NCBI GenBank assembly: GCA_946481605.1
Contig: CAMLPA010000009.1
Coordinates: 1-19,813, forward strand
Reading direction: 5' to 3'
Source of the DNA: an uncultured Flavihumibacter sp.
GTDB taxonomy: Bacteria; Bacteroidota; Bacteroidia; Chitinophagales; Chitinophagaceae
Length of the DNA stretch: 19,813 bases
The position numbers and the translations under genes are program-made. The notes beneath the pieces are model-generated. The model did no database searches, was not told where the DNA came from, and was given only the letters and a program-made list of their open reading frames with translations. Positions 645 to 19,110 of the stretch are shown one piece after another. Position 1 is the first letter of the stretch; every line of letters begins with the position of its first letter.

Positions 645-677
645 TTGCGAATTTGTCAACATCGTGTCATATTTTTG
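645..677 (+). promoter_or_regulatory. Promoter of the act-cox operon
   Basis: TATTTTTG at 670-677 is an exact TAnnTTTG -7 box. TTG at 645-647 lies 22 bases upstream, inside the 17-23 range described for Flavobacterium promoters. An alternative TTTG at 652-655 is too close (14 bases). A run of ten A at 626-635, followed by TTTAA, sits where an UP element would be expected. The start site would be near 683, giving a leader of about 40 bases before actA. Confidence 0.6.
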
Positions 678-725
678 CAGCCGACTTTGGATATTTTTCC
701 ACATCCCAAACCAATTATTGTGGAT

Positions 726-1970: not shown

Positions 1971-2059
1971 GCGAAACAACAGACCAAAGTAATTCATAGT
2001 ATAATCGTAGAAACAGAGGGATGACCGCGCAAGCAGCGCTCTTTGTACAAGTCAACTAA

Positions 2060-5236: not shown

Positions 5237-5295
5237 GAAAACGGATCCTTAAAGACAGATCATAACTCAGTACAGAAGCGAAAAGCAGACAAAAT

Positions 5296-6744
5296 ATGGC
5301 ATCATTAAAGTACGAATCACAGTTAAGAGAGCCATTGGTGAACGGCACCAAAGATTACCACCAGGTAACCGAAGACATCGTTCGCCCTATTGAAGCCAAG
5401 CCGGCCCGACTGTGGTATGTAGGTTTCTACATTTCCGTGGCCCTGTTGTTGTTCGGTGTGTATTCCGTTTACCGTGAGGTGGCTTACGGTATCGGGGAAT
5501 GGAACCTGAACAAGACCATCGGATGGGGTTGGGACATCACCAACTTCGTATGGTGGGTAGGTATCGGTCACGCGGGTACGCTGATCTCCGCGATCCTCCT
5601 CCTGTTCCGTCAGGGTTGGAGAACTGGGGTGAACCGCGCTGCGGAAGCGATGACTATCTTCGCCGTAATGTGTGCCGGTCAGTTCCCGATCTTCCACATG
5701 GGTCGTGTATGGATGGCCTTCTTCGTACTGCCTTACCCCAACAGCCGCGGTCCGCTGTGGGTGAACTTCAACTCACCTTTGCTTTGGGACGTGTTCGCGA
5801 TCTCTACTTACTTCACGGTATCCCTGTTGTTCTGGTACTCAGGTCTTCTGCCCGACTTCGCTACCGTTCGTGACCGTGCAAAAACAAAATTCAGAAAAAT
5901 GATGTATGGTGTGGCCGCCTTCGGATGGACAGGCTCCACCAAACACTGGCAACGCCATGAAGCGCTTTCGCTGGTACTGGCCGGTTTGAGTACACCACTC
6001 GTACTTTCCGTACACACCATCGTATCGTTTGACTTCGCCACCTCTGTAATTCCCGGATGGCACACCACCATCTTCCCACCATACTTCGTTGCGGGTGCGA
6101 TCTTCTCTGGTTTCGCCATGGTGCAAACCCTGATGATCATCGTTAGAAAGATTCTTTATCTGGAAGATTATATCACACTGGGCCACATTGAAGCGATGAA
6201 CAAGGTAATCGTACTCACAGGTTGTATTGTGGGTTGTGCTTACCTCACCGAATTGTTCATTGCCTGGTACTCTGGTGTGGAATACGAAAGATATGTGTTC
6301 TTCGAGAACCGTGCCGATCCGCTGAGTCCATACGGATGGAGCTACTGGCTGATGATGACCTGTAACGTGGTATCACCGCAGTTGTTCTGGTTCCGCAAGC
6401 TCAGGAGGAACATCGCGTTCACCTTCTTCATGAGTATCATCGTGAACATCGGGATGTGGTTCGAACGTTTCGTGATCATCGTAACTTCTTTGTACCGCGA
6501 TTACCTGCCTTCATCCTGGTCGGCTTACTACAGTCCGTCCATCTGGGAGATCGGCTTCTATCTCGGAACCTTCGGTTTGTTCTTTACCTGTTTCTTCCTG
6601 TTCGCCAAATATTTCCCTGTAATTGCGATCGCGGAGATCAAACACGTACTGGCTACCACAGGTGAGGCACAGAAAGAGAAGATGGAAGTGATTGAGACCA
6701 CAAGCGTGAATGATTTCGCACATGACCATGCGCATCACCACTAG
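5296..6744 (+). CDS. actC: Alternative complex III subunit ActC: NrfD/PsrC-like quinol-binding membrane protein
   Basis: Integral membrane subunit of complex III, 482 aa, of the NrfD/PsrC (polysulfide reductase membrane subunit) family. It contacts the iron-sulfur part of ActB and holds a menaquinol site. About ten hydrophobic segments are visible, starting with the helix near residue 40 (LWYVGFYISVALLLFGVY) and ending near 420-445. Polar residues inside the membrane region typical of the family are present, for example the GHAGTLISAILLLFRQGWR stretch and the QFPIFHMGR stretch. A short C-terminal tail ends HDHAHHH. It starts 59 bases after actB and is followed 42 bases later by actD. ActF is its paralogue-like partner in the complex. 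Confidence 0.94.
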   Translation: MASLKYESQLREPLVNGTKDYHQVTEDIVRPIEAKPARLWYVGFYISVALLLFGVYSVYREVAYGIGEWNLNKTIGWGWDITNFVWWVGIGHAGTLISAILLLFRQGWRTGVNRAAEAMTIFAVMCAGQFPIFHMGRVWMAFFVLPYPNSRGPLWVNFNSPLLWDVFAISTYFTVSLLFWYSGLLPDFATVRDRAKTKFRKMMYGVAAFGWTGSTKHWQRHEALSLVLAGLSTPLVLSVHTIVSFDFATSVIPGWHTTIFPPYFVAGAIFSGFAMVQTLMIIVRKILYLEDYITLGHIEAMNKVIVLTGCIVGCAYLTELFIAWYSGVEYERYVFFENRADPLSPYGWSYWLMMTCNVVSPQLFWFRKLRRNIAFTFFMSIIVNIGMWFERFVIIVTSLYRDYLPSSWSAYYSPSIWEIGFYLGTFGLFFTCFFLFAKYFPVIAIAEIKHVLATTGEAQKEKMEVIETTSVNDFAHDHAHHH

Positions 6745-6786
6745 GAAGACACGGTAACAAATTGAATTATTATTAATTGAAGAATA

Positions 6787-7383
6787 ATGGCTGTTAAAAA
6801 ATTCGTAGTAGGTTGTTTCAGTGAAGAGGCTACACTGTTTCCTGCGGTAAAAAAGGTACGCACAGCGGGTTATAAAATCCACGATGTGTACACGCCGTAT
6901 CCTGTGCATGGTCTGGATCATGCGCTGGGCCTTCGCGAGACGAGCCTTCACACGGCAGGTTTCATTTACGGCATCACAGGAACTACCACGGCGCTTAGCT
7001 TTATGGGTTGGGTCTTCACAAAAGACTGGCCGATGAACATTGGTGGCAAACCGCATTTCCCGCTGCCAGCGTTCATTCCCATCACGTTTGAGCTGACGGT
7101 GTTGTTTTCCGCGGTAGGAATGGTACTTACTTTCTGCTACCTGTGCCAGTTGGCGCCTTTCGTGAAAAAGCACCATTTCCACGCACGTGCCACAGATGAC
7201 CTGCATGTAATGGCCATTGAATGTACTTCCAAAACCAATGAGGCCGAAGTAATGGCATTCCTCGAAGCCAATGGCGCGCAGGAAGTGCATACGCAGATGG
7301 CTGAAACCGGTTGGTGGCTGGGCCGCTACGACAAGGAAACAAAATTGTCTGAAGCAAAAGGTGTACGCCAGGAAGGACATTAA
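6787..7383 (+). CDS. actD: Alternative complex III subunit ActD (DUF3341 family)
   Basis: Small membrane subunit, 198 aa, of the DUF3341 family that defines ActD. The first 50 residues form a soluble domain (KKFVVGCFSEEATLFPAVKK, then VYTPYPVHGLDHALGL, the family signature). Two membrane helices follow near 57-82 and 97-123, then a soluble C-terminal domain. No cofactor motif is visible. In the solved complexes this subunit packs against the membrane partners and has a structural role. ATG at 6787 directly follows an AT-rich spacer without a Shine-Dalgarno. The next gene begins only 59 bases after its stop, which suggests co-transcription. Confidence 0.92.
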   Translation: MAVKKFVVGCFSEEATLFPAVKKVRTAGYKIHDVYTPYPVHGLDHALGLRETSLHTAGFIYGITGTTTALSFMGWVFTKDWPMNIGGKPHFPLPAFIPITFELTVLFSAVGMVLTFCYLCQLAPFVKKHHFHARATDDLHVMAIECTSKTNEAEVMAFLEANGAQEVHTQMAETGWWLGRYDKETKLSEAKGVRQEGH

Positions 7384-7442
7384 TCATTTAAATGAGCAGC
7401 AGGCTGATCCGGGTAACCGGCCAGCTAAAAAAATACCATCGG

Positions 7443-8096
7443 ATGAAGAAATTATCAATCATAGCAGTTGTTACCGGCGCCGTAGTACTGGCCGCCTGCA
7501 GCGATGTAAAGCGCAAGCCCGGGAAAATATATATGCCCGATATGGCTTACAGCCGTGCATACGAGGCTTATTCGGTAACCGAGGAGCAACGCGCCGAATT
7601 GAAAAAGCAAGGGATCAATTTCAGCAACCTGCCTGTGGAAGGAACCATCAGCCGCGGCGAAATGCTTCCTTACAGCCTGAAAAATGATTCCGCAGGTTAT
7701 GCCCTCAGTGCAGGAATCAGGAACCCGCTGCCCGCGCTCACCGAACAGGAGATGCAGGAAACCGAAAGGCTCTACCTCATCAACTGCGGTATCTGCCATG
7801 GTCAGGCGCTCGACGGAAACGGTCCGTTGTACAAAGATGGCGCTGGTCCTTACCCCGCCGCGCCACGGAACCTGCTGGACGACTATTCTAAAAAGCTCGC
7901 CGACGGTACCATGTTCCACGTGATGACTTACGGCCGGAACCTGATGGGCAGCTACGCTTCTCAATTGACACGCAAGCAAAGATGGATGATCGTTAGCTAT
8001 ATCAGGAACAAGCAGGGACTTGGCGGCGCAACAGCAGCCGCAGCTTCGGATTCCACCGCAGCGGCCCCTAAAGCAGATTCAACAGCAACGAAGTAA
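7443..8096 (+). CDS. actE: Alternative complex III subunit ActE: monoheme cytochrome c lipoprotein
   Basis: Periplasmic heme subunit that relays electrons from ActA toward the oxidase. From ATG 7443 the protein is 217 aa and begins MKKLSIIAVVTGAVVLAAC, a clean lipoprotein signal with Cys19 as the lipid anchor. The frame is open back to 7392, but that start would bury the signal peptide behind 17 polar residues, so 7443 is preferred. One heme motif, CGICH (115-119), and a likely distal ligand Met168 in NLMGSYASQL are present. Upstream of the heme is the family segment YMPDMAYSRAYEAYS. The C-terminus is a low-complexity Ala/Ser/Thr tail ending DSTATK, a peptide that also appears in the tail of subunit II. 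Confidence 0.94.
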   Translation: MKKLSIIAVVTGAVVLAACSDVKRKPGKIYMPDMAYSRAYEAYSVTEEQRAELKKQGINFSNLPVEGTISRGEMLPYSLKNDSAGYALSAGIRNPLPALTEQEMQETERLYLINCGICHGQALDGNGPLYKDGAGPYPAAPRNLLDDYSKKLADGTMFHVMTYGRNLMGSYASQLTRKQRWMIVSYIRNKQGLGGATAAAASDSTAAAPKADSTATK

Positions 8097-8138
8097 ACCA
8101 AAACAGCATTTCGAAAAATCATTAAATAACAGTTGATA

Positions 8139-9368
8139 ATGGCTATCAGAGAACAATTTCAAATCACCGGCAGGATGCGCAACTGGGGACTGGGATTAAC
8201 AGCGGTAGGCGCACTCGCGCTGATCCTGGGAGTCTTCACCCTCGGTATGAGTAAAGATGAGCATGAAGTAGCGCGCTTCTGGGCCGTTCTGTTGCAAAAC
8301 AGCGTATTCTTCCTGCTGGTAGTGAACGCCGCCATGTTCTTTATTTGCGCCACCACCCTCGCAATGGGCGGATGGCAGGTGGCTTTCAGAAGAGTTCCCG
8401 AAGCCATTTCAGCGCTGGTTCCTGTTTTCGGTATCCTCGCCTTCATCGTGCTGATGGGTATTGTACTCGGTCACCAACACCATATTTACCACTGGCTCGA
8501 TAAGGAGCATGTGGAGCATGACCCTATTCTGAAAGGAAAATCCGGGTTCCTGAACGCAGGTTTCTTCACTACCTGGACAGTCATCACACTGGTATTGTGG
8601 AGCTTCCTGGGCTGGAAAATGCGGAAAATGTCTTATGACTCCGATAAGAACGGTGTGATGAGCAAAGAACAAGGCCAGAAATTCATCTGGAAGAACACGG
8701 TTTGGGCCGGTCTGTTCCTCGTGTTCTTTGGTTTAACCGTTGCCTCCACCATTCCCTGGCTCTGGATCATGAGTATTGACGCGCACTGGTTCTCTACCAT
8801 GTTCAGTTGGTACACTTTCGCGAGCACCTTTGTTTCAGGTATGGCGCTGATCGCCCTGTTCGTGGTGTTCCTGAAAAACAACGGTTACCTGGAATATGTA
8901 AACAACGAGCACCTGCACGATATCGGTAAGTTCATGTTCGCATTCTCTATCTTCTGGACCTACCTCTGGTTTTCCCAGTTCATGCTGATCTGGTACGCCA
9001 ACTTCCCTGAAGAGACCATTTACTTCAAGGCCAGGCTGGAAGGCCCGTACAGGGGACTGTTCTTCTTCAACCTGATCGTGAACTTCGTGGCGCCGATCCT
9101 GATCCTGATGTCACGCAATTCAAAAAGAAACTATTCCGTTGTAACATTTATGGCGGTACTGATCATATTCGGTCACTGGATTGATGTGTACCTGATGGTG
9201 CAGCCCAGTGTGCAGAAAGAACATTTCCACCTGAACTGGTTCGATTTCGGCATCGCGGTATTGTACGTTGGACTGATTATTCTGCTGGTGGGAAGGCAGC
9301 TTACAAAGCATTCCCTGCTCGCGAAGAACCATCCTTTCCTGAAAGAAAGTATTATTCACCATACTTAA
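8139..9368 (+). CDS. actF: Alternative complex III subunit ActF: NrfD-like membrane protein
   Basis: Second large membrane subunit of complex III, 409 aa from ATG 8139. The reading frame also contains a TTG two codons upstream, which is less likely. It has about ten hydrophobic segments, the first near residues 17-36 (WGLGLTAVGALALILGVFTL). Family-typical stretches are present: GHQHHIYHWLD around 112, MSIDAHWFSTMFSWY and FWTYLWFSQFMLIWYANFPEE. In the known structures ActF resembles ActC but is not the quinol-oxidising subunit; it has been discussed as a possible proton path. It is the last act gene. The spacer of 72 bases before the oxidase subunit II gene holds no terminator, so act and cox genes are probably one transcript. 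Confidence 0.93.
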   Translation: MAIREQFQITGRMRNWGLGLTAVGALALILGVFTLGMSKDEHEVARFWAVLLQNSVFFLLVVNAAMFFICATTLAMGGWQVAFRRVPEAISALVPVFGILAFIVLMGIVLGHQHHIYHWLDKEHVEHDPILKGKSGFLNAGFFTTWTVITLVLWSFLGWKMRKMSYDSDKNGVMSKEQGQKFIWKNTVWAGLFLVFFGLTVASTIPWLWIMSIDAHWFSTMFSWYTFASTFVSGMALIALFVVFLKNNGYLEYVNNEHLHDIGKFMFAFSIFWTYLWFSQFMLIWYANFPEETIYFKARLEGPYRGLFFFNLIVNFVAPILILMSRNSKRNYSVVTFMAVLIIFGHWIDVYLMVQPSVQKEHFHLNWFDFGIAVLYVGLIILLVGRQLTKHSLLAKNHPFLKESIIHHT

Positions 9369-9440
9369 TCCGGAAAGTTCAGTAAACGAAAAGAGGAAGA
9401 AGCCATTTTATTTAGAAACTTTGTTTAATAGATCAATATC

Positions 9441-10496
9441 ATGTATTTATTAATTGTTACAGTAGTAGTATTGGTTTTTGTAGTGATCTTCCAGATTGCC
9501 AAAGCCAGTGAATACGTGTCTGTACTGAAGGGCGAAGAAAGAACGCGCCAGCAGAGCAACCGTATCAACGGTTTCCTGATGGTAGGTTTCCTGCTGCTCG
9601 GATTGGTAGGCGTATGGTGGTGCAACGACCTGCTGTACAACAAGACCCTTTTGCCCCAGGATTCCGCCTCCGTGGAAGGTGAACTGATTGACAGGATGAT
9701 GTGGATCACCCTCGCAGTTACCGGCGCCGTGTTCATTATCACACAGATCATACTGTTTGTGTTCGCTTTCAAATACCAGGAAAAGCCCGGTCAGAAAGCG
9801 TTCTACTACCCACACAACAACAAACTCGAACTTTTGTGGACCGTTGTTCCTGCCCTGGTGCTCACTACCATGGTTGGTTTCGGTCTGAAATACTGGTTCC
9901 GTATTACTTCCGACGCGCCTGAAAATGCACTGGTGGTGGAAATTACTGGTAAGCAGTTCAACTGGCTGTATCGTTATGCAGGTAAAGACCAGCAGTTCGG
10001 TAAGAAATATTACAAGAATATTGACGACTCCAAGTCAAATGAACTGGGGCTTCTCTGGGATGATCCCGCCGCACAGGATGATGTTACGCCTACGGTGATG
10101 TACATCGTGAAGAACCGTCCCGTGAAATTGGTGATCAACTCCCGTGATGTGGTACATGATGTGGGTCTGGCGCACTTCCGTATGAAGATGGATGCGGTAC
10201 CCGGAACCCCTACAACGATGTGGTTCACCCCGAAGTTCACCACTGCGGAAATGAAGGAAAAGACGAACAATCCCAACTTCACCTACGAAATTTCCTGCGA
10301 CCAGATGTGCGGCAAAGGGCACTACTCCATGAGAGGGGTGATTGAGGTGGTAACCCAGGAAGAATTCGACCTGTGGATGATGAAGCAGAAACCACAGTAC
10401 CTGGTGGCGCATCCCGATAAGGATCCGGCCAACCAGAAGCCTGCCGGAACACCAGCCGGTGATTCCACTGCTACCAAAAGCATTGCCCAAAACTAA
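9441..10496 (+). CDS. coxB: Cytochrome c oxidase subunit II (CuA subunit)
   Basis: Carries the binuclear CuA centre that takes electrons from complex III or cytochrome c and passes them to subunit I; 351 aa. CuA ligands are visible: His239 in DVVHD, Cys286 and Cys290 in CDQMC, His294 and Met297. The usual CxExC glutamate is Gln288 here. Four hydrophobic segments are seen (2-20, 44-62, 86-110, 130-152), two more than the classical subunit II; the last two correspond to the classical hairpin. There is no C-terminal cytochrome c domain, so this is an aa3-type rather than a caa3-type subunit. The tail is Ala/Thr-rich with DSTATK. No separate promoter is convincing upstream. Confidence 0.95.
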   Translation: MYLLIVTVVVLVFVVIFQIAKASEYVSVLKGEERTRQQSNRINGFLMVGFLLLGLVGVWWCNDLLYNKTLLPQDSASVEGELIDRMMWITLAVTGAVFIITQIILFVFAFKYQEKPGQKAFYYPHNNKLELLWTVVPALVLTTMVGFGLKYWFRITSDAPENALVVEITGKQFNWLYRYAGKDQQFGKKYYKNIDDSKSNELGLLWDDPAAQDDVTPTVMYIVKNRPVKLVINSRDVVHDVGLAHFRMKMDAVPGTPTTMWFTPKFTTAEMKEKTNNPNFTYEISCDQMCGKGHYSMRGVIEVVTQEEFDLWMMKQKPQYLVAHPDKDPANQKPAGTPAGDSTATKSIAQN

Positions 10497-10546
10497 TTTG
10501 AACAAGAGACGCGAAGTTTATTAAGGTTATTGAAAAAAACATTCTC

Positions 10547-12364
10547 ATGAGCAACGAAGCCACAATACACGCACACGGAACAGAACATGCGCACGATGTG
10601 CACCACGACAGCCATGGTGATCATCACCATCATGAGACCTTCATTTCGAAGTACATCTTCAGTATGGATCACAAGATGATCGCCAAGCAATTCCTGGTAA
10701 CAGGGATCATCTGGGCCATCATCGGCGGTCTGTTCTCCGTGATCTTCCGTTTGCAACTCGGCTACCCCGATCAAACCTTCCCCTTCCTGGAAGACCTGCT
10801 CGGTAAATGGGCCAAAGGCGGCAAACTGAACGCTGAATTCTACTATGCACTCGTTACCATGCACGGAACCGTACTCGTGTTCTTCGTACTGACAGCGGGC
10901 CTCAGCGGGACGTTCTCCAACTTCCTCATTCCCCTGCAGATCGGTGCACGCGATATGGCTTCGCCTTTCATGAATATGCTGAGCTACTGGTTCTTCTTCC
11001 TGGCCAGCGTGGTAATGTTCTCTTCTATCTTCGTACAAACAGGCCCTGCGAGTGGCGGATGGACCTCTTATCCTCCGTTAAGCGCCCTCGGCGCGGCTTC
11101 TGAAGGCTCTAAAGTGGGTATGGACCTCTGGCTCGTTTCCATGGCGCTCTTCGTGGTATCTTCCCTGCTGGGCGGCCTGAACTATATTTCAACCGTATTG
11201 AACATGCGTACCAAAGGTATGAGCATGACGAGGTTGCCGCTCACCATCTGGGCGTTCTTCTTCACCGCTGTACTGGGTGTACTTTCTTTCCCTGTATTGC
11301 TGAGCGGATTCATCCTGCTGCTGTTCGACCGCCACGGCGGTACCAGCTTCTACCTCAGCGATATCTTCATTTCAGGTGTGGGTGCCCTTCCCAACGAAGG
11401 TGGTAGCGCTATCCTTTACCAGCACTTGTTCTGGTTCCTGGGACACCCTGAGGTGTACATCATCCTGCTCCCTGCGATGGGTATGGCTTCGGAGATTCTT
11501 TCTACCAACGCCCGCAAACCCATCTTCGGATACATGGCCATGGTGGCCTCCCTGTTTGCGATCACTGTACTGGCGTTCCTCGTATGGGCACACCACATGT
11601 TCGTGACAGGTCTGAACCCCTTCCTCGGCGCGTTCTTCGTACTGCTTACGCTGCTCATCGCGGTACCTTCCGCCATCAAGGTGTTCAACTGGCTCACCAC
11701 CATCTGGAGGGGTAACATCAGGTTTACACCCGGGATGCTTTTCGCGATCGGTTTCGTGAGCCTGTTCATCTCCGGCGGTCTTACAGGGATCTTCCTTGGT
11801 AACTCTACCCTGGACATTCACCTGCACGATACCTACTTTGTAATTGCCCACTTCCACATTGTAATGGGTGTATCAGCGTTCTTCGGCATGTTCGCCGGGG
11901 TGTACCACTGGTTCCCCAAAATGTTCGGACGTTACCTGAATAACACACTGGCCTACATTCACTTCTGGATCACGCTGATCGGTGCTTACCTGATCTTCTG
12001 GCCCATGCACTATGAAGGATTGGCCGGTATGCCCCGCCGTTACCTCGATTACAGCGGATGGGAATCGTTCAAACAATTCGTGGAACTGAACAAGTTCATC
12101 AGTATTGTAGCAATCCTGGTATTCGCGGTGCAACTGTTGTTCGTATTCAACTACTTCTATTCCATGTTCAAGGGAAGAAAAGTAACGGACACCAACCCGT
12201 GGAAATCCACTACGCTGGAATGGACCACCCCCATCAATCCTGGTCACGGCAACTGGCCTGGTGAAATTCCTGAAGTACACCGTTGGGCGTACGATTACGG
12301 AAAGGATGGCAAGGACTTCATTCCGCAAACGGAGCCGGTTCATCCTCAGGAAAGCAAGCACTAA
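10547..12364 (+). CDS. coxA: Cytochrome c oxidase subunit I (heme-copper, A-family)
   Basis: Catalytic subunit that reduces oxygen and pumps protons; 605 aa with about twelve membrane helices. Visible ligands are low-spin heme His106 (MHGTVLVFF) and His437, CuB His300, His349 and His350 (GHPEVYI and WAHHMF), high-spin heme His435 (AHFHI), and the cross-linked Tyr304. Proton-path residues Glu302, Asp136 (GARDMASP) and Lys378 (SAIKVF) are present, which places it in the A-type with D and K channels. The first 30 residues are extremely His-rich (about twelve His), an extension absent from textbook subunit I. ATG 10547 lies 50 bases after coxB. An intrinsic terminator follows twelve bases after the stop. 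Confidence 0.97.
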   Translation: MSNEATIHAHGTEHAHDVHHDSHGDHHHHETFISKYIFSMDHKMIAKQFLVTGIIWAIIGGLFSVIFRLQLGYPDQTFPFLEDLLGKWAKGGKLNAEFYYALVTMHGTVLVFFVLTAGLSGTFSNFLIPLQIGARDMASPFMNMLSYWFFFLASVVMFSSIFVQTGPASGGWTSYPPLSALGAASEGSKVGMDLWLVSMALFVVSSLLGGLNYISTVLNMRTKGMSMTRLPLTIWAFFFTAVLGVLSFPVLLSGFILLLFDRHGGTSFYLSDIFISGVGALPNEGGSAILYQHLFWFLGHPEVYIILLPAMGMASEILSTNARKPIFGYMAMVASLFAITVLAFLVWAHHMFVTGLNPFLGAFFVLLTLLIAVPSAIKVFNWLTTIWRGNIRFTPGMLFAIGFVSLFISGGLTGIFLGNSTLDIHLHDTYFVIAHFHIVMGVSAFFGMFAGVYHWFPKMFGRYLNNTLAYIHFWITLIGAYLIFWPMHYEGLAGMPRRYLDYSGWESFKQFVELNKFISIVAILVFAVQLLFVFNYFYSMFKGRKVTDTNPWKSTTLEWTTPINPGHGNWPGEIPEVHRWAYDYGKDGKDFIPQTEPVHPQESKH

Positions 12365-12376
12365 AGATATTTGGCA

Positions 12377-12407
12377 ATGCCCTGAACCAGTGTCAGGGCA
12401 TTTTTTT
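12377..12407 (+). terminator. Intrinsic terminator after subunit I
   Basis: A perfect nine-base-pair stem (ATGCCCTGA, 12377-12385, with TCAGGGCAT, 12393-12401) and a seven-base loop is followed by a T tract to 12407. It ends the act-cox transcript, yet lies only 33 bases before the ctaB start codon. Confidence 0.9.
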
Positions 12408-12427
12408 CAGATTCAGATTTAAACCGG

Positions 12428-12434
12428 AAGGAGG
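12428..12434 (+). promoter_or_regulatory. Strong Shine-Dalgarno that supports the TTG start of ctaB
   Basis: AAGGAGG stands six bases before TTG 12441. Good Shine-Dalgarno sites are rare in this window, so this one decides the start. Confidence 0.75.
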
Positions 12435-12440
12435 AAGATT

Positions 12441-13364
12441 TTGAGCGAAAAAGCAACCAGGCACTCTAAAGTGCGCGATTACATGTTGCTCATGAAATTC
12501 ACACTGAGTTTCACGGTGGTCTTCTCCTGTGTGATCAGTTATCTCCTGGTGCCCGGGGTGTTCTTTAACCTTAAAATGGTGTCGCTGCTGTTTTTGGGTG
12601 GTATGCTGGTAACGGGTGCGGCCAACGCCATCAACCAGATTGTGGAGAAGGATACGGACGCGATGATGAAACGTACCGCCGTAAGGCCCATCGCCTCTGG
12701 CAGAATGAGTGTTACGGAAGGTTGGCTGTTTGTTTGGGTCGCCGGAATAGCCGGAACCCTGATTATGTGGTATTATTTCAACTGGATGGCCGCCTTATGG
12801 TCGGTATTCAGTTTGTTTTTATACGCTTACATCTATACGCCACTGAAGAAAGTAAATTCAGTAGCAGTATTGGTGGGAGCGGTTCCCGGGGCGCTTCCCT
12901 GCCTTATTGGCTGGGTGGCTGGCGCTGATGCGCATACGCCGGGTGGATGGGTGCTCTTTGCCATACAGTTTTTCTGGCAACTGCCGCATTTCTGGGCCAT
13001 CGCCTGGGTGGCGCATGGAGATTATTCCCGCGCGGGATTCAAATTTATGCTCCCCACAGCTGAAGGTCCAACAAAGTTTACGGCAGTACAAACGATCATG
13101 TATTCAGCCCTGCTTATCCCGATTTGTATCCTTCCCTATGTATTGGGAATGAGTGGGAAAGCGAGCCTGATCCTGATTTTCTTCGCCAACCTGTACATGG
13201 TATTGCAATGTGTACGGCTTTTCAGAAGAATGGATGTGCCTTCGGCCAGAAGGGTAATGTTTACAAGCTATCTCTATCTCCCGATTGTGCTGTTGTTTTT
13301 GCTGTGGGATAAGGGAGAACTCGGTGGATCGTTGTCCGTTTTGCTTGGACTTTATGGAAAATAG
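12441..13364 (+). CDS. ctaB: Protoheme IX farnesyltransferase (heme O synthase)
   Basis: Adds a farnesyl group to heme B to give heme O, the precursor of heme A for the oxidase; inner-membrane UbiA-type prenyltransferase, 307 aa with about nine helices. The Asp-rich prenyl-diphosphate motif is NQIVEKDTDAMMKRT (near 67-81), in which the first Asp of the usual NxxxDxDxD is Glu. VRPIASG and YTPLKK follow, and LPHFWAIAWVAHGDY in the middle is typical of the family. The start is TTG at 12441, backed by AAGGAGG at 12428; the next ATG (12483) would leave the Shine-Dalgarno unexplained. It lies directly behind the coxA terminator with no visible promoter, so expression probably depends on read-through or on a promoter inside coxA. 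The next gene starts 31 bases after it. Confidence 0.94.
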   Translation: MSEKATRHSKVRDYMLLMKFTLSFTVVFSCVISYLLVPGVFFNLKMVSLLFLGGMLVTGAANAINQIVEKDTDAMMKRTAVRPIASGRMSVTEGWLFVWVAGIAGTLIMWYYFNWMAALWSVFSLFLYAYIYTPLKKVNSVAVLVGAVPGALPCLIGWVAGADAHTPGGWVLFAIQFFWQLPHFWAIAWVAHGDYSRAGFKFMLPTAEGPTKFTAVQTIMYSALLIPICILPYVLGMSGKASLILIFFANLYMVLQCVRLFRRMDVPSARRVMFTSYLYLPIVLLFLLWDKGELGGSLSVLLGLYGK

Positions 13365-13395
13365 AACAGATTTTTAATTTCTTAATAAGTGAAGA

Positions 13396-13962
13396 ATGAA
13401 CCTGACCATGAGTGAACAAAGAAAAAAGATACACCCCCACAAGTTTACCATGTGGATCGCGCTGGGCAGCATCATTATGATGTTCGCCGGTTTAACGAGT
13501 GCGTATATTGTAAAAAGGAACCAGGGCAACTGGCAGGAGTTCCGCATTCCTATGGAGTTTTATTATTCCACCGCGGTAATCCTGGTAAGCAGCCTCACGA
13601 TCCAGATGGCGCTGCGCGCCTTTAAAGACCGTGAAATGGTGAAGTACAGAAGGCTCATCACCATCACAGCCCTGCTGGGTGTGGTATTTATGGTGATGCA
13701 GTGGTTTGGTTTCGGGGAATTGTACCAGACGGGTATCCGTTTAGACGGAAACGTCTCCGGGTCTTTCCTGTTCGTGATCACCGGGCTGCACATGGTACAC
13801 GTATTGGGTGGGGTGGTAGCGCTGATTGTGATGTTCTTTAAAGCGTTCAGAAGACAAAAAAGAACATACAGCTCAGTAGGCATAGAAGTGGCGAGCACGT
13901 ACTGGCATTTTGTGGATATACTCTGGATTTATCTTTTCGTGTTTTTTCTGTGGATCCAGTAG
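13396..13962 (+). CDS. Cytochrome c oxidase subunit III-like protein (first copy)
   Basis: 188-aa membrane protein of the heme-copper oxidase subunit III superfamily, with five hydrophobic segments (about 18-38, 57-77, 86-106, 122-146, 166-187). Family signatures are the N-terminal KIHPHKFTMWIALGSIIMMFAGLTSAYI, given here only as a region (residues about 10-37), the middle GLHMVHVLGG and the C-terminal YWHFVDILWIYLF. It is short, like the five-helix CyoC/CtaE forms. ATG 13396 is used; ATG 13408 gives a four-residue shorter product. It is followed by a longer paralogue after a 73-base spacer that contains a promoter-like box. Which of the two copies is the stable oxidase subunit cannot be told from sequence. 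Confidence 0.85.
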   Translation: MNLTMSEQRKKIHPHKFTMWIALGSIIMMFAGLTSAYIVKRNQGNWQEFRIPMEFYYSTAVILVSSLTIQMALRAFKDREMVKYRRLITITALLGVVFMVMQWFGFGELYQTGIRLDGNVSGSFLFVITGLHMVHVLGGVVALIVMFFKAFRRQKRTYSSVGIEVASTYWHFVDILWIYLFVFFLWIQ

Positions 13963-13981
13963 CAATAAAATTGACGGAAAA

Positions 13982-14014
13982 TTAAACAGTTAACAGGATT
14001 GTAAATTAAATTTG
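13982..14014 (+). promoter_or_regulatory. Candidate internal promoter before second subunit III gene
   Basis: TAAATTTG at 14007-14014 is an exact -7 box placed 21 bases before ATG 14036. The upstream element is weak: TTA at 13982-13984 lies 22 bases away instead of TTG. It could restore transcription downstream of the coxA terminator. Confidence 0.4.
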
Positions 14015-14035
14015 CGAATCTATTAAAACAATCAC

Positions 14036-14707
14036 ATGGCACAAGCAGTTCCAACCGGACAAAAGCTGTGGGGCGGAGGAAAAAGCCCTTTCAATGTAGA
14101 GTACGGCAAGTTGATGATGTGGTACTTCCTGATGAGTGATGCCTTTACATTTGGCGCGTTCCTCATTTCTTATGGAACCATCCGCTTCGCTACCAACGGA
14201 TGGCCCGACCCCAACGAAGTATTCCAGTCGTTCCCCGGACTTGGTTCAGGCTACCCCCTGCTGTTCGTGAGTGTGATGACCTTCATCCTGATCATGAGTT
14301 CCGTAACCATGGTACTGGCCGTACACGCGGGACACAACAACGACAAACAAGGTGTAATCAAAAATATGGTTTGGACCATTATAGGTGGACTGGCATTCCT
14401 CGGTTGCCAGGCCTGGGAATGGACACACCTGCACCACGAAGGCGCCTGGTGGGGCATGAACCCCTTCCTGAACGCTGATGGTACACAAGCGACCACCAAC
14501 TTCACCAACTTCTTCTTCACCATCACCGGTTTCCACGGTTTCCACGTATTCTCCGGTGTGGTAATCAACATCATCATGCTGATCATGACCATCAACGGCG
14601 TGTTCGAAAAGAAAGGGCATTACCTGATGATCGAAAAAGCCGGGTTGTACTGGCACTTCGTTGACCTCGTATGGGTATTCGTATTCACCTGCTTCTACCT
14701 GCTTTAA
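14036..14707 (+). CDS. coxC: Cytochrome c oxidase subunit III
   Basis: Non-catalytic core subunit of the oxidase that stabilises subunit I; 223 aa, five hydrophobic segments. Recognisable parts are KLMMWYFLMSDAFTFGAFL near residues 25-43, QAWEWTHL around 125, GFHGFHVFSG around 162 and the C-terminal YWHFVDLVWVFVF, all standard for subunit III. It is about 35 residues longer than the preceding paralogue, mainly in a loop with GAWWGMNPFLNADGTQ between the third and fourth helices. Twenty-four bases separate it from the subunit IV gene, with no terminator, so the two are co-transcribed. Confidence 0.92.
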   Translation: MAQAVPTGQKLWGGGKSPFNVEYGKLMMWYFLMSDAFTFGAFLISYGTIRFATNGWPDPNEVFQSFPGLGSGYPLLFVSVMTFILIMSSVTMVLAVHAGHNNDKQGVIKNMVWTIIGGLAFLGCQAWEWTHLHHEGAWWGMNPFLNADGTQATTNFTNFFFTITGFHGFHVFSGVVINIIMLIMTINGVFEKKGHYLMIEKAGLYWHFVDLVWVFVFTCFYLL

Positions 14708-14731
14708 TCACCAATTCAAGAAGATATTATC

Positions 14732-15178
14732 ATGGAACACAACCAACATACAGCACACGCGGAAAACCACGGCGGAGGAACCAAAGAAATCTGGAGAACC
14801 TTCTGGATACTGCTGATTCTTACCATCGTAGAACTCGCACTCGGTTACTGGATCATCGGTATGCCACATGGCGGACTGCTCACCGGTATCAAAGGAGCGA
14901 TCATCATCCTGATGCTGGCCAAAGCTTTCTATATCGTGGCCTACTTCATGCACCTGAAGCATGAACTGAAAACGATCATCATGACCATCGTGGTGCCCCT
15001 GTTCCTCTTCGTTTGGTTCATCATCGCCTTCCTGGCAGATGGTAATTCTTACAAGAACCTGAAGAACGAATACGATCCTTACCACAAGGAGCAATCCACC
15101 AAAAAAGTGGAGAAGAAAGAACATGGCGCGCACGAGGAACACAAGCCCGAAGCGCAGAAAGAAGGTGCGATGGATTAA
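14732..15178 (+). CDS. coxD: Cytochrome c oxidase subunit IV (prokaryotic COX4 type)
   Basis: Small accessory subunit of the oxidase, 148 aa. Three hydrophobic segments (about 23-44, 51-72, 80-102) carry the prokaryotic subunit IV pattern, including LAKAFYIVAYFMHLKHE, in which the YFMHLKHE end of the second helix is the family hallmark. The N-terminus is His/Asn-rich (MEHNQHTAHAENHGG). The C-terminus is a charged, His/Glu/Lys-rich tail of about 45 residues beyond the membrane part, longer than in most relatives. It is the last oxidase structural gene and is followed by a terminator-like hairpin. Confidence 0.9.
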   Translation: MEHNQHTAHAENHGGGTKEIWRTFWILLILTIVELALGYWIIGMPHGGLLTGIKGAIIILMLAKAFYIVAYFMHLKHELKTIIMTIVVPLFLFVWFIIAFLADGNSYKNLKNEYDPYHKEQSTKKVEKKEHGAHEEHKPEAQKEGAMD

Positions 15179-15212
15179 CCCGGATTTGAAAGGAACTTTT
15201 TATATTTTTCAG

Positions 15213-15240
15213 AACCATCGCAGCTATGCGGTGGTTTTTT
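15213..15240 (+). terminator. Terminator-like hairpin between subunit IV and SCO
   Basis: A ten-base-pair stem (AACCATCGCA, 15213-15222, with TGCGGTGGTT, 15227-15236, one G-U pair) has a GCTA loop and is followed by four more T, six T in a row in all. The hairpin overlaps the ATG at 15226, whose A is the last loop base. Confidence 0.7.
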
Positions 15241-15975
15241 ATTAAACGATTTGAAGTGAAAAAGAGTGCGTTACTGGCCCTGTGCATCGCGATCCTGTTA
15301 CCGGTGGTAAGCTATTTCATCGTGAAATCTTTCAGCGATGATTCCTATGCCATGCCCCGCCGGTTTTATTATGATACCGTGCTTACCAAAGTGGTGGATG
15401 GAAAAACGACCACCGATACAGTATGGCATAAAATACCTGCGCTTCCACTGGTTAACCAACTGGGCGATACGGTAAGTTTTGAAGACCTTCCAGGTAAAGT
15501 GATTGTGGCGAACTTTTTCTTCACCCGCTGCCCCACTATCTGCCCCAGGCTCACCACCAGTATGAAAGGATTGCAGGACGCGCTGAAGTTGAAAAGCCAG
15601 ACCAGGATGATCGATACCACATTCGTTCATTTCCTTTCCTACAGTATTGATCCGCAGCGAGACAGTGTTCCCGTGCTGAAAAACTATGCGGACCGATATG
15701 GCGTGAACCACGATGTATGGTGGATGCTTACCGGCGATAAGAAATCTATCTACGACCTGGTGCTGAACGAATACAAACTTGCATTGGTGGATGGAGAACA
15801 TGTAGACAGTGCCTTTATCCACAGCGAAAAATTCGTCCTCCTCGATAAAGACCGTGTGATCCGCGGTTACTACAATGGATTAGATACTGCTTCTATGGCA
15901 ACGCTGGCGGAAGACATTGTGTTCCTGATGCTGGAAAAAGACAAAAAGAAAAAACGAAACCTCTTCAGAAAATAA
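15226..15975 (+). CDS. SCO1/SenC/PrrC copper chaperone for the CuA site
   Basis: Membrane-anchored thioredoxin-fold protein that delivers copper to or reduces the CuA site of subunit II. The single N-terminal anchor (KKSALLALCIAILLPVVSYF) is followed by a periplasmic domain with the copper motif CPTIC in NFFFTRCPTICPRL and the distal ligand His in AFIHSEKFVLLD. Numbered from GTG 15256, these are Cys92, Cys96 and His189, all three ligands intact. Two starts are possible. ATG 15226 (249 aa) lies inside the terminator-like hairpin. GTG 15256 (239 aa) gives a textbook MKK signal anchor beyond it. ATG is listed, but GTG may be the real one. DUF420 follows after 10 bases. Confidence 0.9.
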   Translation: MRWFFIKRFEVKKSALLALCIAILLPVVSYFIVKSFSDDSYAMPRRFYYDTVLTKVVDGKTTTDTVWHKIPALPLVNQLGDTVSFEDLPGKVIVANFFFTRCPTICPRLTTSMKGLQDALKLKSQTRMIDTTFVHFLSYSIDPQRDSVPVLKNYADRYGVNHDVWWMLTGDKKSIYDLVLNEYKLALVDGEHVDSAFIHSEKFVLLDKDRVIRGYYNGLDTASMATLAEDIVFLMLEKDKKKKRNLFRK

Positions 15976-15985
15976 ACCCCTCGTT

Positions 15986-16528
15986 ATGCTCGCTCCGGTA
16001 ATTAAGAAGAATGATAAGTCGGCAAGATTGCTGATCGGTGTGGTGTCCTTTGTGGTGTTCGCCGCCGTGGTATTGCTTTCGAGGGTGAAACTTGAAGTGG
16101 ACCTGGGGTTTGATGTACACGTATTTGCTAAGATTAATGCCATCCTCAATACAGCTGTAACATTATTACTTGCTGCCGGACTTATTTCAGTGAAGCTGAA
16201 ACGCTTCAACGCACACAAAAACATCATGCTTACAGCGATGGTTTTCTCCGCGCTGTTCCTGGTTTCTTACATCTGCTACCACCTGTTTACGGGTGAAACA
16301 AAGTTTGGTGGAACGGGCGCCATCAGAACCTTTTACTATTTCATCCTCATCACCCATATCTTCCTGGCCGCAGTGATCCTGCCTTTTATCCTGTTCACGG
16401 TTTACAGGGGGCTGACGGCTGAATTTCCCCAACACAAAAAGATCGCCCGCATCACCTGGCCGATCTGGTTCTATGTAGCGGCTACCGGTGTGATTGTTTA
16501 CCTGATGATTAGTCCCTATTACGTGTAG
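15986..16528 (+). CDS. DUF420 membrane protein, CtaM/YozB-like oxidase assembly factor
   Basis: 180-aa membrane protein with five hydrophobic segments (about 14-34, 50-70, 78-98, 115-140, 152-175). It matches the DUF420 family: the second helix leads to KRFNAHKNIML, then SYICYHLFTGETKFGG, then FYYFILITHIFLA and a C-terminal HKKIARITWPIWFYVAATGV. Staphylococcal CtaM, which I believe belongs to this family, is needed for aa3-type oxidase maturation. Here the gene stands ten bases after the SCO chaperone at the end of the oxidase cluster, which fits that role, but function is inferred from family and neighbours. It ends only 16 bases from the convergent alkyltransferase-like gene, with no visible terminator. 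Confidence 0.85.
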   Translation: MLAPVIKKNDKSARLLIGVVSFVVFAAVVLLSRVKLEVDLGFDVHVFAKINAILNTAVTLLLAAGLISVKLKRFNAHKNIMLTAMVFSALFLVSYICYHLFTGETKFGGTGAIRTFYYFILITHIFLAAVILPFILFTVYRGLTAEFPQHKKIARITWPIWFYVAATGVIVYLMISPYYV

Positions 16529-16898: not shown

Positions 16899-17076
16899 GC
16901 ATGCGGCGTTTTCTGTCTTCCTTGCAAACCGAACGTTTAGGTTCAGGCACGGCTTCATAATCATAAGGGCAATGCCTGCAGCCGTTGCCGCAACAATGGC
17001 CCCGTTTCAGGTGAAAAACTTCCGTTAACACCATCAGTCCGGCTTCATTAAAATAAAAATCAATTCCCTCCTTCAT
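16876..17076 (-). CDS. DUF5522 small cysteine-rich protein
   Basis: 66-aa protein of unknown function. Its core reads IDFYFNEAGLMVLTE, then HLKRGHCCGNGCRHCPYDY, which is the DUF5522 signature. The four close cysteines (28, 29, 33, 36) suggest a metal site, perhaps zinc or iron-sulfur, but this is inference. ATG 17076 is chosen; GTG 17088 would add four residues. The gene overlaps the 3' end of trmB by 17 bases and the start of the alkyltransferase-like gene by 23, so the three are one tight operon. The C-terminal 25 residues are Arg/Lys-rich. It is easily missed because of its size. Confidence 0.8.
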   Translation of the reverse strand: MKEGIDFYFNEAGLMVLTEVFHLKRGHCCGNGCRHCPYDYEAVPEPKRSVCKEDRKRRMHEGNANV

Positions 17077-17773
17077 CGGCTGTTTCACGGAGCATTTCTT
17101 TTAAGATGGCATCTTTTTCGATGGGCAACTCAACATTTAGTCTGAACTGAAGATAATGTATCCGGTTGGACCCGGCAATGTCCAGGCTTTCATAATGGGT
17201 TTTGATCTGAAGTTCGGGATGAACGCTTTCTTCCGAGAAAACATTCTCTTTGTCAACAATCAGTTCAAGCCCGTACAATGCTATTACGGTTTTTGTAAAA
17301 TGGTAGAGGCTGGGCGAATCTGTTTTCAGGTGAACAACACCATCTTTCTTCAGCAACTGCTGGTATCTCCGGAGAAACATGGGGTGTGTCAATCTTTTTT
17401 TCAGTTTAGAGAAGCGCAGTTGTGGGTCGGGGAACGTGATCCAGATTTCAGCGACTTCTTCCGCAGCGAAATATTGTGTTACCTGGTCGATCTGTGAGCG
17501 GATGAACGCCACGTTGCCGAGATTTTCCTTCAATGCTGTTCTTGCCCCAACCCAAATTCTGTTCCCTTTCAGGTCCACGCCTATAAAATTTCTTTCCGGG
17601 TACATCCTGCCCAGCCCAACGGCGTATTCTCCTTTTCCACAGGCCAGTTCCAGTGTAATGGGATTGGTGTTGCCGAAATGGTTTTTCCACTGTCCCGGCA
17701 TATTGGGTGGATATTCAAAAACGTTGGAGAAACCGCGGATATCGGAGAAGCGCTCTAATTTATTCTGTCCCAT
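17060..17773 (-). CDS. trmB: tRNA (guanine-N7-)-methyltransferase
   Basis: Methylates G46 in the variable loop of tRNAs using S-adenosylmethionine; cytoplasmic, 237 aa. The SAM-binding motif is LELACGKGEY (41-50), followed by GVDLKGNRIW (65-74). The catalytic region is WITFPDPQ (111-118) with LTHPMFL (128-134) and LKTDS (149-153), all in TrmB order. The usual FPDPWPKKRH segment reads FPDPQLRFSKLKKR, a common variant in Bacteroidota. It heads the trmB, DUF5522, ATL operon. An exact -7 promoter box stands four bases before the ATG, so the mRNA is probably leaderless. It lies about 550 bases downstream of the tRNA-like RNA on the same strand, beyond that RNA's terminator. Confidence 0.95.
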   Translation of the reverse strand: MGQNKLERFSDIRGFSNVFEYPPNMPGQWKNHFGNTNPITLELACGKGEYAVGLGRMYPERNFIGVDLKGNRIWVGARTALKENLGNVAFIRSQIDQVTQYFAAEEVAEIWITFPDPQLRFSKLKKRLTHPMFLRRYQQLLKKDGVVHLKTDSPSLYHFTKTVIALYGLELIVDKENVFSEESVHPELQIKTHYESLDIAGSNRIHYLQFRLNVELPIEKDAILKEMLRETADEGGN

Positions 17774-18244: not shown

Positions 18245-18301
18245 AAAAAAATTGCAAGCCGCAACCATGTTTGTGTGGTAGAACATAGCAACGACTTGCA
18301 A
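18245..18301 (-). terminator. Strong intrinsic terminator of the tRNA-like RNA
   Basis: On the minus strand a 20-base arm beginning TTGCAAG (18301-18282) pairs with the arm ending CTTGCAA (18271-18252), with one mismatch and a few G-U pairs. The loop has ten bases and seven U follow (18251-18245). It begins about 20 bases after the 3' end of the tRNA-like RNA and ends no protein gene, so it supports an independent minus-strand RNA gene. Confidence 0.85.
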
Positions 18302-18321
18302 CTTATACGCAAAACAGAGAG

Positions 18322-18488
18322 CTGTAGAGGGAGGAGTCGAACCTCCACGGAGTAGTTAGCCATAGCACAAAATATTGAGTGGTCAACCCTTCCTGAAAGC
18401 ATTGCTGCCCGCAGGTCTATGCTACGTTTATCCCATGATCCCCACCCCCGAGACAAGAGGGCATGTCTGCCAGTTTCATCACTCCACA
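18322..18488 (-). ncRNA. tRNA-like RNA with type II (Leu-like) core and a 98-nt structured variable arm
   Basis: Read on the minus strand, TGTGGAG (18488-18482) pairs with CTCTACA (18329-18323), a seven-base-pair acceptor with one G-U. U8 and G9 follow, then a three-base-pair D stem ATG/CAT around the loop AAACTGGCAGA, the same length and pattern as tRNA-Leu D loops, including the GG pair. The anticodon stem CCCTC/GGGGG holds the seven-base loop TTGTCTC. The T arm is GGAGG-TTCGACT-CCTCC, fully canonical. Base 73 is G and no CCA is encoded. Between the anticodon and T arms lie 98 bases (18444-18347) instead of the usual 15 or so. They are closed by GGGG/CTCC and contain a longer helix (18417-18425 with 18355-18365), a hairpin with a GCAA tetraloop (18392-18415) and a small hairpin (18374-18387). 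The anticodon position reads GUC, which does not fit a leucine tRNA. It may be a processed, tRNA-derived regulatory or structural RNA. Confidence 0.75.
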
Positions 18489-18525
18489 GTATGTATCGGC
18501 TTCTGCCGTAAGAACTTTGATAGTG

Positions 18526-18558
18526 CAATATTAAGGCAATTCTCCTTTGGTTTGCAAA
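18526..18558 (-). promoter_or_regulatory. Candidate promoter of the tRNA-like RNA
   Basis: On the minus strand TTTG (18558-18555), 21 bases and TAATATTG (18533-18526) match the Bacteroidota consensus with one mismatch. The start would be near 18520, leaving a leader of about 30 bases before the tRNA-like 5' end. Confidence 0.4.
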
Positions 18559-18642
18559 TTATTCAAATAAAATTTTGTAATTATAGAAATTGTTCAAATA
18601 TTTGTATATACGATTCGAAACCATCAAAACTGTTATCTAAAA

Positions 18643-19110
18643 ATGGCGGCTAAATTAAATCTTGACAAACTGGATATCCAGATCATCCATGAAATGATGG
18701 AGAATGCAGAGATATCCTACGCCGATCTGGGTAAAAAACTCTTTGTTTCCGGCGGCACCATCCACGTACGCATCAAAAAACTCCAGGAATTTGGTATTGT
18801 GAAAGGCACCCGGCTCAATGTTGACCTCAAACAACTGGGCTATGATGTGATCGCTTTTATTGGCGTTTACCTCGAGAAGAGTTCACTTTATGATACCGTG
18901 GCCAAAGAACTGAAGAAGATACCACAGATTGTGCGGCTGAATTATACGACCGGCAACTATAGTATGTTCGCCGAGATCGTGTGTAAAGACATCAACCAGC
19001 TTCGTTTCGTGCTCCACGATGAATTGCAGAAAATCAAAGGTATTGAGCGTACCGAAACCTTCATTTCGCTGGAAGAAAGTTTTATCCGCAACGTGGAAGT
19101 AAGCCTGTAA
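18643..19110 (+). CDS. Lrp/AsnC family transcriptional regulator
   Basis: 155-aa DNA-binding regulator. Residues 5-60 form the winged helix-turn-helix (LDKLDIQIIHEMMENAEISY, then ADLGKKLFVSGGTIHVRIKK, then LQEFGIVKGTRLNVD), the standard Lrp arrangement in which the LDxxDxxIL start is well kept. Residues 65-150 form the RAM effector and oligomerisation domain (DVIAFIGVYLEKSS, TTGNYSMFAEIVCKD, IERTETFISL). The family usually senses amino acids and binds as an octamer or dimer. Targets cannot be read here. ATG 18643 is preceded by an AT-rich stretch without a Shine-Dalgarno. It is divergent from the tRNA-like RNA, with about 120 bases between their presumed starts, so the spacer may serve both. 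Confidence 0.9.
   Translation: MAAKLNLDKLDIQIIHEMMENAEISYADLGKKLFVSGGTIHVRIKKLQEFGIVKGTRLNVDLKQLGYDVIAFIGVYLEKSSLYDTVAKELKKIPQIVRLNYTTGNYSMFAEIVCKDINQLRFVLHDELQKIKGIERTETFISLEESFIRNVEVSL

Follow-up and report, generated by a model that had tools for sequence, protein, structure and literature searches.

A tRNA-like RNA with a giant variable arm in bacteria and phages and its candidate role in asparagine synthesis

A tRNA-like RNA, here called X, is encoded on the minus strand of a 19,813-nucleotide stretch of DNA (the window) from an uncultured Flavihumibacter sp., at the place where an initial annotation had put one, and is confirmed as a member of a large RNA family and a real tRNA-like RNA. 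Judged by published identity elements, X would combine an aspartate anticodon loop with the amidation-directing end of tRNA-Asn. We put at roughly 55% the probability that X does not decode but receives aspartate from AspRS, is amidated by GatCAB and serves as a carrier for asparagine synthesis under the control of AsnC. The initial annotation had offered an unusual tRNA, a tRNA mimic or a regulatory RNA as options. The tRNA-like RNA is real, but these options are vague, and the evidence points to an RNA of Asp identity that would be open to amidation, would not decode and is linked to both GatCAB and an AsnC-type regulator. That annotation had noted neither the AspRS-like loop nor the U1–A72/G73 end, and it had overlooked the divergent gene of asnC type, the connection with GatCAB and the copies in phages.

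X has the acceptor, D, anticodon and T arms, the T loop and the 73/74 end of a tRNA (Table 1). All eight acceptor pairs, including –1:73, are formed in 32 of 32 aligned copies, and the D, anticodon and T arms together with the two helices at the base of the variable arm are paired in 99–100% of the alignment cells. The D arm is of the Leu type, as first described, with a 3-bp stem, a G18G19 loop and a tRNA-Leu-like D loop; its stem shows a U–A to C–G change in 3 of the 32 copies. A genome-encoded C74 is found also in all 34 ordinary tRNAs read from G001, the genome nearest to the window.

Table 1. Features of X and of its surroundings in the window
Feature	Position	Strand	Basis or remark
Respiratory gene cluster	645-16528	+	ORF translations; SCO1 and DUF420 confirmed
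trmB, tRNA m7G46 methyltransferase	17060-17773	-	NF001080
Probable X terminator, TTGCAAGTCG (18292-18301) / CGGCTTGCAA (18252-18261), then 7 T	18245-18301	-	sequence reading
tRNA-like RNA X, C(-1) to C74	18321-18489	-	R1 covariance model, 153.6 bits; window copy among the 32 in the model
X acceptor 3' strand CUCUACA, G73 (18322), C74 (18321)	18321-18329	-	G73 and C74 in 62/62 A5 copies
X T arm GGAGG-UUCGACU-CCUCC	18330-18346	-	100% of cells paired; both-sided changes in 1/5 pairs
X giant variable arm	18349-18443	-	helices 18440-18443/18349-18352 and 18433-18435/18353-18355
X variable-arm internal loop GAUAAA / CUAA	18427-18432 / 18356-18359	-	
X variable apical domain	18360-18426	-	
X anticodon-like arm CCCUC-UUGUCUC-GGGGG	18445-18461	-	100% of cells paired in 32 copies; 4/5 pairs invariant
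X loop 32-38 UUGUCUC: G34U35C36 (18454-18452), U37, C38 (18450)	18450-18456	-	A5 column counts
X D arm, stem AUG (18477-18479)/CAU (18463-18465), G18G19 loop, Leu-like	18463-18479	-	99% of cells paired
X acceptor stem 5' strand UGUGGAG, U1 at 18488	18482-18488	-	partner 18323-18329
GUUCUU leader, boxA-like	18510-18515	-	sequence motif
Promoter-like TAATATTG, Bacteroidota -7-like box	18526-18533	-	TTG at 18555-18557 possible -33
Direct repeat of 14 nt in two copies (18556-18569 and 18587-18600), 31 nt from start to start	18556-18600	-	between X and AsnC-type gene
AsnC-type transcriptional regulator, divergent from X	18643-19110	+	PF01037/PF13404

The window copy of X found blastn matches in 31 of 59 relatives, a few of them partial. 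In an alignment of 32 copies with a 36-pair structure, 97.3% of the cells pair, and 18 of the 36 pairs are changed on both sides, as against 10.4 in shuffled alignments (0 of 500 reach 18) and 2–6 with slid partners. The homologues and the covariation that the initial annotation had named as checks are thus both present. The folding energy of the window copy is unremarkable and uninformative (z = –0.97), yet the comparison across relatives settles X as real.

The most telling new part of the structure is the base of the variable arm. Its conserved part consists of GGGG/CUCC, UGG/CUA and the internal loop GAUAAA/CUAA; in the alignment a helix GGGG/CCCC is followed by a helix CAG/CUG, and the latter also occurs as UGG/CCA, CGG/CCG, CAA/UUG, CGA/UCG and ACG/CGU. 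The two helices pair in 100% and 99% of the cells, and five of their seven pairs are changed on both sides. The earlier view of a huge folded variable region, about 95 nt long in the window copy, was right. Above this base the arm ranges from a simple hairpin, as in the short members of 119–129 nt (L013, 123 nt; L018, 119 nt; L026; L027), to a three-way junction. The latter had been drawn for X from the window alone; it is, however, the variable part of the RNA, with a closing helix paired in 91% of the cells and a hairpin at the place of the proposed second one in 79%. No conservation was seen for pairing between the GUC loop and an internal GAY motif of X. A 78-nt relic or minimal form (L379; G127:C23:55200-55560) has the loop CUAUCUC, with an AUC triplet, and no variable arm; its genome, G127, has GatB and no GlnRS match.

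X is absent from Rfam and missed by ARAGORN as far as searched. Rfam 15 gave no match in the window at the gathering threshold and none on the X strand at E ≤ 10, in keeping with the early statement that no named family is like it, and X is not among the 43 RF00005 matches of G001. ARAGORN reported no tRNA or tmRNA in the window and no gene in 30 X loci; one short phage member (L237) was called tRNA-Asp. A tmRNA, which the initial annotation had discounted, and an intron-interrupted tRNA were both rejected: neither ARAGORN nor Rfam makes a tmRNA call at X, and the variable insert is absent only from the G127 relic among the copies read. tmRNA is likewise tRNA-like and, as predicted for X, non-decoding at its own anticodon position, and the two occur together in six of 38 phage loci scanned; X differs from it in its normal D arm and in carrying Asp rather than Ala signals. 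A search of the open-access (PMC) literature found no description of such an RNA. What is new, as far as found, is a dedicated, putatively non-decoding RNA with a giant arm, its location across from a gene of asnC type and its occurrence in phages; the proposed chemistry itself, tRNA-dependent asparagine synthesis, is known.

A covariance model (R1) built from the 32 copies, all with GTCTC, was run over 395 genomes of the phylum. Its scores fall into two groups, at least 89.9 bits in the 40 genomes with X and at most 62.2 bits for the remaining matches; four of the lower group were read and are three tRNA-Leu genes (in G150, G096 and G047; 50.7–62.2 bits) and the G127 relic. Pattern scans of hosts and of viral contigs gave at least 120 stretches each, of which 80 loci each were kept. 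The model confirms X in all 80 host loci (106 copies at 92.7 bits or more, some in tandem) and in all 80 viral loci (at least 66 bits, one copy truncated by the stretch end). Five pairs of host loci are repeats (L140/L031, L120/L006, L097/L051, L126/L056 and L129/L025). The family is widespread: among bacteria it spans Chitinophagales, Cytophagales, Sphingobacteriales and Saprospiraceae and reaches one Ignavibacteriales MAG, and it is carried on many phage contigs; the named-genome matches listed include Chitinophaga, Terrimonas, Mucilaginibacter, Pedobacter, Dyadobacter and Spirosoma and, among others, Algoriphagus, Cyclobacterium, Saprospiraceae and the Ignavibacteriales MAG.

Since the pattern in both scans fixes GTCYCG, the pattern-chosen sets (A3 and A4) were not used for claims of loop invariance. 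These rest on 62 copies from blastn and model hits that were not chosen by loop pattern (A5), a set that is also not bias-free because the model was built on 32 GTCTC copies. In A5, U1–A72, G2–C71, G73 and C74 are each present in 62 of 62 copies, G34 in 61, U35 and C36 in all 62, and C38 in 61 with one gap; in the pattern-chosen sets, U1–A72 is found in 105 of 106 host copies (A3) and 77 of 79 complete phage copies. According to the available part of PMC9976931, Asp identity consists of G73, G34, U35, C36 and C38, with G1–C72 and G2–C71 conserved in bacterial tRNA-Asp, and U1–A72 of tRNA-Asn directs the amidation of Asp-tRNA, which G1–C72 and U20a oppose. X has all of the Asp set except G1–C72, in whose place stands U1–A72; its D loop reads GGCAG, with A at 20a (in our own numbering), so that the published signs of a GatCAB substrate, U1–A72 and the absence of U20a, are both found. 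Among 34 distinct tRNAs of G001, read at loci that cover 30 of its 43 RF00005 matches, tRNA-Asn alone has U1–A72 with G73; this combination is also missing from all 280 distinct ARAGORN calls made in the phage loci. The loop of G001 tRNA-Asp is CUGUCAC, compared with CUGUCUC or UUGUCUC in X. Nine distinct tRNA-Asn genes from phage and named-genome loci all start with G1, as against U1 in the tRNA-Asn of G001.

The sole exception at G34 in A5 is the copy of genome G370 (L058/L384), which reads UUC, a Glu anticodon, and is possibly a natural switch from Asp to Glu identity; we count it in favor of a carrier amidated by GatCAB because Glu-tRNA is the other substrate of that enzyme. Adjacent pairs of X at four Mucilaginibacter loci (L062, L101, L130 and L132) consist of one copy with a GUCCC loop and one with a GUCGC loop, possibly two specialized paralogues.

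Two points count against a carrier of aspartate. X has U1–A72 where bacterial tRNA-Asp has G1–C72, a pair said in the accessible text of PMC9976931 to aid positioning of the 3' end on AspRS, and the long variable arm and G73 would also suit SerRS. A SerRS substrate would fit the arm and G73 and the tRNA-Ser genes found beside X in several phage loci, but would leave the GUC–C38 loop and the link to GatB unaccounted for. Leu identity was rejected on the discriminator, which is G73 in 62 of 62 copies rather than A73. X shares with tRNA-Leu and class II tRNAs the 3-bp D stem, the D-loop sequence and a long variable arm, and differs from tRNA-Leu also in its GUC triplet, which is no Leu anticodon, in a far longer variable region in most members and in the internal-loop motif.

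Elongator tRNAs as a rule have U33 and a purine at position 37. X departs from this rule in both positions: in A5, position 37 is U in 60 copies and C in two, and position 33 is U in 45, C in 13, A in three and G in one; G37 was seen in four copies, from Mucilaginibacter. A decoding tRNA with this mix of signals would insert Asn where the codon calls for Asp, and the loss of decoding features is in line with this; U37, the unfixed position 33 and the giant arm lead us to predict that X does not decode. That X is an odd but working tRNA-Asp for GAC and GAU with a long arm, as the GUC triplet in a 7-nt loop and the carriage of X by phages along with tRNA arrays might suggest, is on these grounds highly improbable: an ordinary tRNA-Asp(gtc) is present in the same host genome and in phage loci (L197, L230, L235, L245 and L256), and U1–A72 would cause mis-decoding as Asn wherever GatCAB exists. 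With A73 absent, U37 in the loop and this ordinary tRNA-Asp at hand, a decoding tRNA for either Asp or Leu was rejected.

The acceptor end of X would make it a substrate of GatCAB, the presence of which was judged by a search for GatB. The class to which G001 belongs, presumably Bacteroidia to judge from its named relatives, makes up 98 of the 395 genomes. Of these, 37 have both X and GatB, four GatB only, none X only and 57 neither, so that X is found in 37 of 41 genomes with GatB and in 0 of 57 without it. Among the 59 relatives the corresponding counts are 31, 10, 1 and 17, the one genome with X only (G013) being 72% complete. X status changes three times on an AspRS tree of 28 genomes, as compared with a shuffled mean of 7.9; as losses are few and clustered, the Fisher p-values of 7.5e-23 (class) and 4.2e-7 (relatives) overstate the co-occurrence and are indicative only. 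GlnRS above the cut-off is absent from eight of the 10 relatives with GatB only, so GatCAB is needed for Gln there. It is also absent from two of the four such genomes in the class (G096 and G127); the other two (G208 and G256), together with G047 and G057, have GatB and GlnRS without X and count against the carrier reading. The GatB of G208 and G256 scores lower (E about 1e-94) and is perhaps acquired; in their family, f24, GatB is not matched in any other sampled genome, and X is missing throughout. Outside the class of G001, GatB is common without X, and many genomes with GatB and GlnRS lack X; in the three genomes of f67, X and GatB are both present, while GlnRS gives no match at E ≤ 1e-60.

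In most relatives with X, GatCAB is not needed for decoding, since AsnRS is above the cut-off in 57 of the 59 relatives (31 of 32 with X) and GlnRS in 47 (30 of 32). It does have a decoding job in G043 and in three genomes of the class with X (G220, G325 and G437), all of which lack GlnRS. AsnA was found in two of the 59 relatives, and AsnB-like proteins (TIGR01536, paralogues not separated) above the cut-off in 51, with and without X alike, so that X need not be the sole source of asparagine. Seven genomes with X have neither AsnA nor AsnB above the cut-off (G016, G017, G019, G023, G025, G037 and G052, the last 83% complete), and one genome (G032) lacks X, GatB, AsnA and AsnB.

Some bacteria, including Bacteroidetes, combine AsnRS, GlnRS and GatCAB with only one AspRS. 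They are described in the available part of PMC4206432, which suggests as possible for them a Bdellovibrio-type route: a non-discriminating AspRS would act on tRNA-Asn, and this would account for GatCAB. Such a route would be simpler than one through X, and the tRNA-Asn of G001 has the U1–A72 that it requires. The AspRS sequences, however, fit a discriminating enzyme. All 28 genomes searched have one bacterial-type AspRS above the cut-off, and the residue that is His in the Asp/Asn ligase 4rmf and in 4o2d and Leu in 1efw, which we take to govern discrimination, is F, L or K and never H in the 25 genomes in which it could be read (three were unmatched; genomes with and without X are mixed). Judged by this single residue, the comparison suggests that the AspRS of these genomes is discriminating and unable to use tRNA-Asn; such an enzyme could not aspartylate tRNA-Asn, and X would then be needed.

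The same identity set and GatB link could also arise if X were a scaffold, binding AspRS on its anticodon side and GatCAB on its acceptor side in a transamidosome whose substrate is tRNA-Asn or another tRNA. Known transamidosomes hold 5–14 components (PMC9976931, in the part available), and PMC4206432, as far as its text was at hand, expects tRNA-Asn as the substrate in such bacteria. Against this stand the AspRS without the 4rmf His at the one position inspected, by which Asp-tRNA-Asn may not form, and the full conservation of G73 and C74, for which a scaffold has no obvious need. The palindromes described below speak for it in phages, where long forms of X would dimerize, and hardly in hosts. 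On balance we consider a scaffold unlikely.

The gene 153 nt upstream of X in the window, on the other strand, encodes an AsnC-type regulator. Among solved structures, the best match of its product is AsnC of E. coli (2cg4, E = 5.9e-33; Lrp 2gqq, 2.6e-9); against the NCBIfam AsnC model NF008384 it scores 157 bits, below the cut-off of 227, with the next family at 67 bits. Of 123 host loci with sufficient flanking sequence, 88 have a relative of this gene (44.5–90.9% identical) that is divergent from X at a distance of 121–252 nt, or 85 of 118 without repeated loci, among them loci of Chitinophaga, Dyadobacter, Spirosoma, Pedobacter, Mucilaginibacter and the Ignavibacteriales MAG. The remaining 35 of the 123, including Algoriphagus, Cyclobacterium, Fulvivirga and Saprospiraceae, have no such neighbor. 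The idea that the largest ORF cluster (50 loci, opposite strand) is an antisense reading of X was rejected, as tblastn places the AsnC-type gene there. E. coli AsnC activates asnA, an activation abolished by asparagine (PMC4482635, in part), and is listed among regulators divergent from their own target (PMC8707732, in the excerpt available). X and its neighbor would form a pair like asnC–asnA if the predicted role of X in asparagine synthesis and its control by the regulator hold.

The two 14-nt repeats between the two genes are possible AsnC operators. The motif TANNNTTG, which we take to be the –7 promoter consensus of Bacteroidota, occurs within 90 nt upstream of X in 104 of 160 host copies, as compared with 25.6 expected, and G[TC]TCTT, whose window form we liken to boxA, within 60 nt upstream in 53 of 160 (4.0 expected from shuffles) and in 0 of 65 phage copies. 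Downstream, a script that requires a perfect hairpin flagged a terminator at 64 of 158 host loci, the window not among these.

In 80 host loci the AsnC-type regulator is the only strongly recurrent neighbor of X, other clusters reaching at most 10 loci. This weighs against an aspartylated RNA that serves another non-ribosomal reaction, such as one in which Asp or Asn is passed on to a protein, a lipid or a small molecule and for which GatCAB is retained; Asp identity without decoding features would suit it, and we regard it as quite unlikely. A decoy or regulatory RNA directed at a tRNA nuclease, a modification enzyme or an mRNA is very unlikely. Phage carriage and the trmB gene adjoining X in the window and in some relatives would agree with a decoy, but identity elements left over from a tRNA would hardly stay invariant over such distances, and the GatB and AsnC links would be unaccounted for. 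In the window, trmB is the first gene to follow X downstream and has the same orientation. The long respiratory cluster farther off presumably encodes multihaem cytochrome, iron–sulfur and membrane proteins like those of alternative complex III, and a cytochrome c oxidase.

Phage copies of X are found in a different setting. An AsnC-type gene lies beside X in 0 of 72 phage loci. In a selected, non-random 38 of the 80 phage loci run through ARAGORN, 30 have at least one other tRNA gene, besides the six with tmRNA mentioned above, and four (L197, L230, L235 and L256) have 24–25 tRNAs each, including the ordinary tRNA-Asp(gtc). Nine viral loci (L187, L197, L213, L230, L235, L236, L245, L252 and L256) combine X with tRNA arrays of up to 25 tRNAs, several of them also with tmRNA. 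Four copies of X gave no blastn match in 50,697 annotated phage records. In the long forms from phages, the stretch after GACCAC remains self-complementary while its letters vary (GCCGGCCGGC, GCTTGCAAGC, GCATGCATGC, TCCTGCAGGA). A palindrome of at least 8 nt is present in 45 of 64 distinct phage long forms, many of them close relatives, as against 5.1 expected; host long forms show little excess (9 of 78 compared with 5.8). The 68 distinct phage copies as a whole include close relatives, and related phages are not independent. Homodimers would be the simplest reading of the palindromes, a small hairpin being the alternative.

If X is a carrier, the following route can be proposed. X would be a stable RNA, transcribed and processed like a tRNA. 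The host AspRS would read G34U35C36, C38 and G73 and charge it with aspartate, and GatCAB would read U1–A72 and convert Asp-X to Asn-X. U37, the unfixed position 33 and the giant variable arm would keep X from decoding Asp codons, and asparagine released from X would enter metabolism and serve AsnRS. X, AspRS and GatCAB would thereby replace or supplement an asparagine synthetase, and the divergent AsnC-type regulator would tune X to the asparagine supply, as E. coli AsnC does with asnA. More tentatively, and with somewhat less than even confidence, we suggest that a non-decoding RNA acting as the dedicated carrier in a catalytic cycle of amino-acid biosynthesis, here of asparagine, is regulated by AsnC like a synthetase gene, and that the phages' own dimerizing X keeps asparagine flowing during infection.

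The nearest known system is the tRNA-dependent asparagine synthesis of Deinococcus radiodurans and Bdellovibrio bacteriovorus by a non-discriminating AspRS, GatCAB and tRNA-Asn. There, as proposed for X, an RNA with U1–A72 is aspartylated and amidated by GatCAB, in organisms that have AsnRS and GlnRS and may lack AsnA and AsnB; the RNA is a decoding tRNA-Asn and the AspRS is non-discriminating (PMC4206432, in the part available). X differs in its Asp anticodon, its giant variable arm and its apparent lack of decoding, and through it a discriminating AspRS could supply GatCAB with substrate. There is also a precedent for a tRNA that serves metabolism and does not decode: the cell-wall tRNA-Gly of Staphylococcus, a non-translating isoacceptor. 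That RNA carries a different amino acid and has no giant arm and no tRNA-dependent amidation.

If the proposed role is right, X would account for a case that work on GatCAB has left unaccounted for, namely the bacteria that have AsnRS, GlnRS, GatCAB and a single AspRS. It would mean that a tRNA can give up decoding and become an RNA cofactor of primary metabolism, that an RNA takes the position of an enzyme gene regulated by AsnC, and that phages carry a further class of RNA beside their tRNAs and tmRNA.
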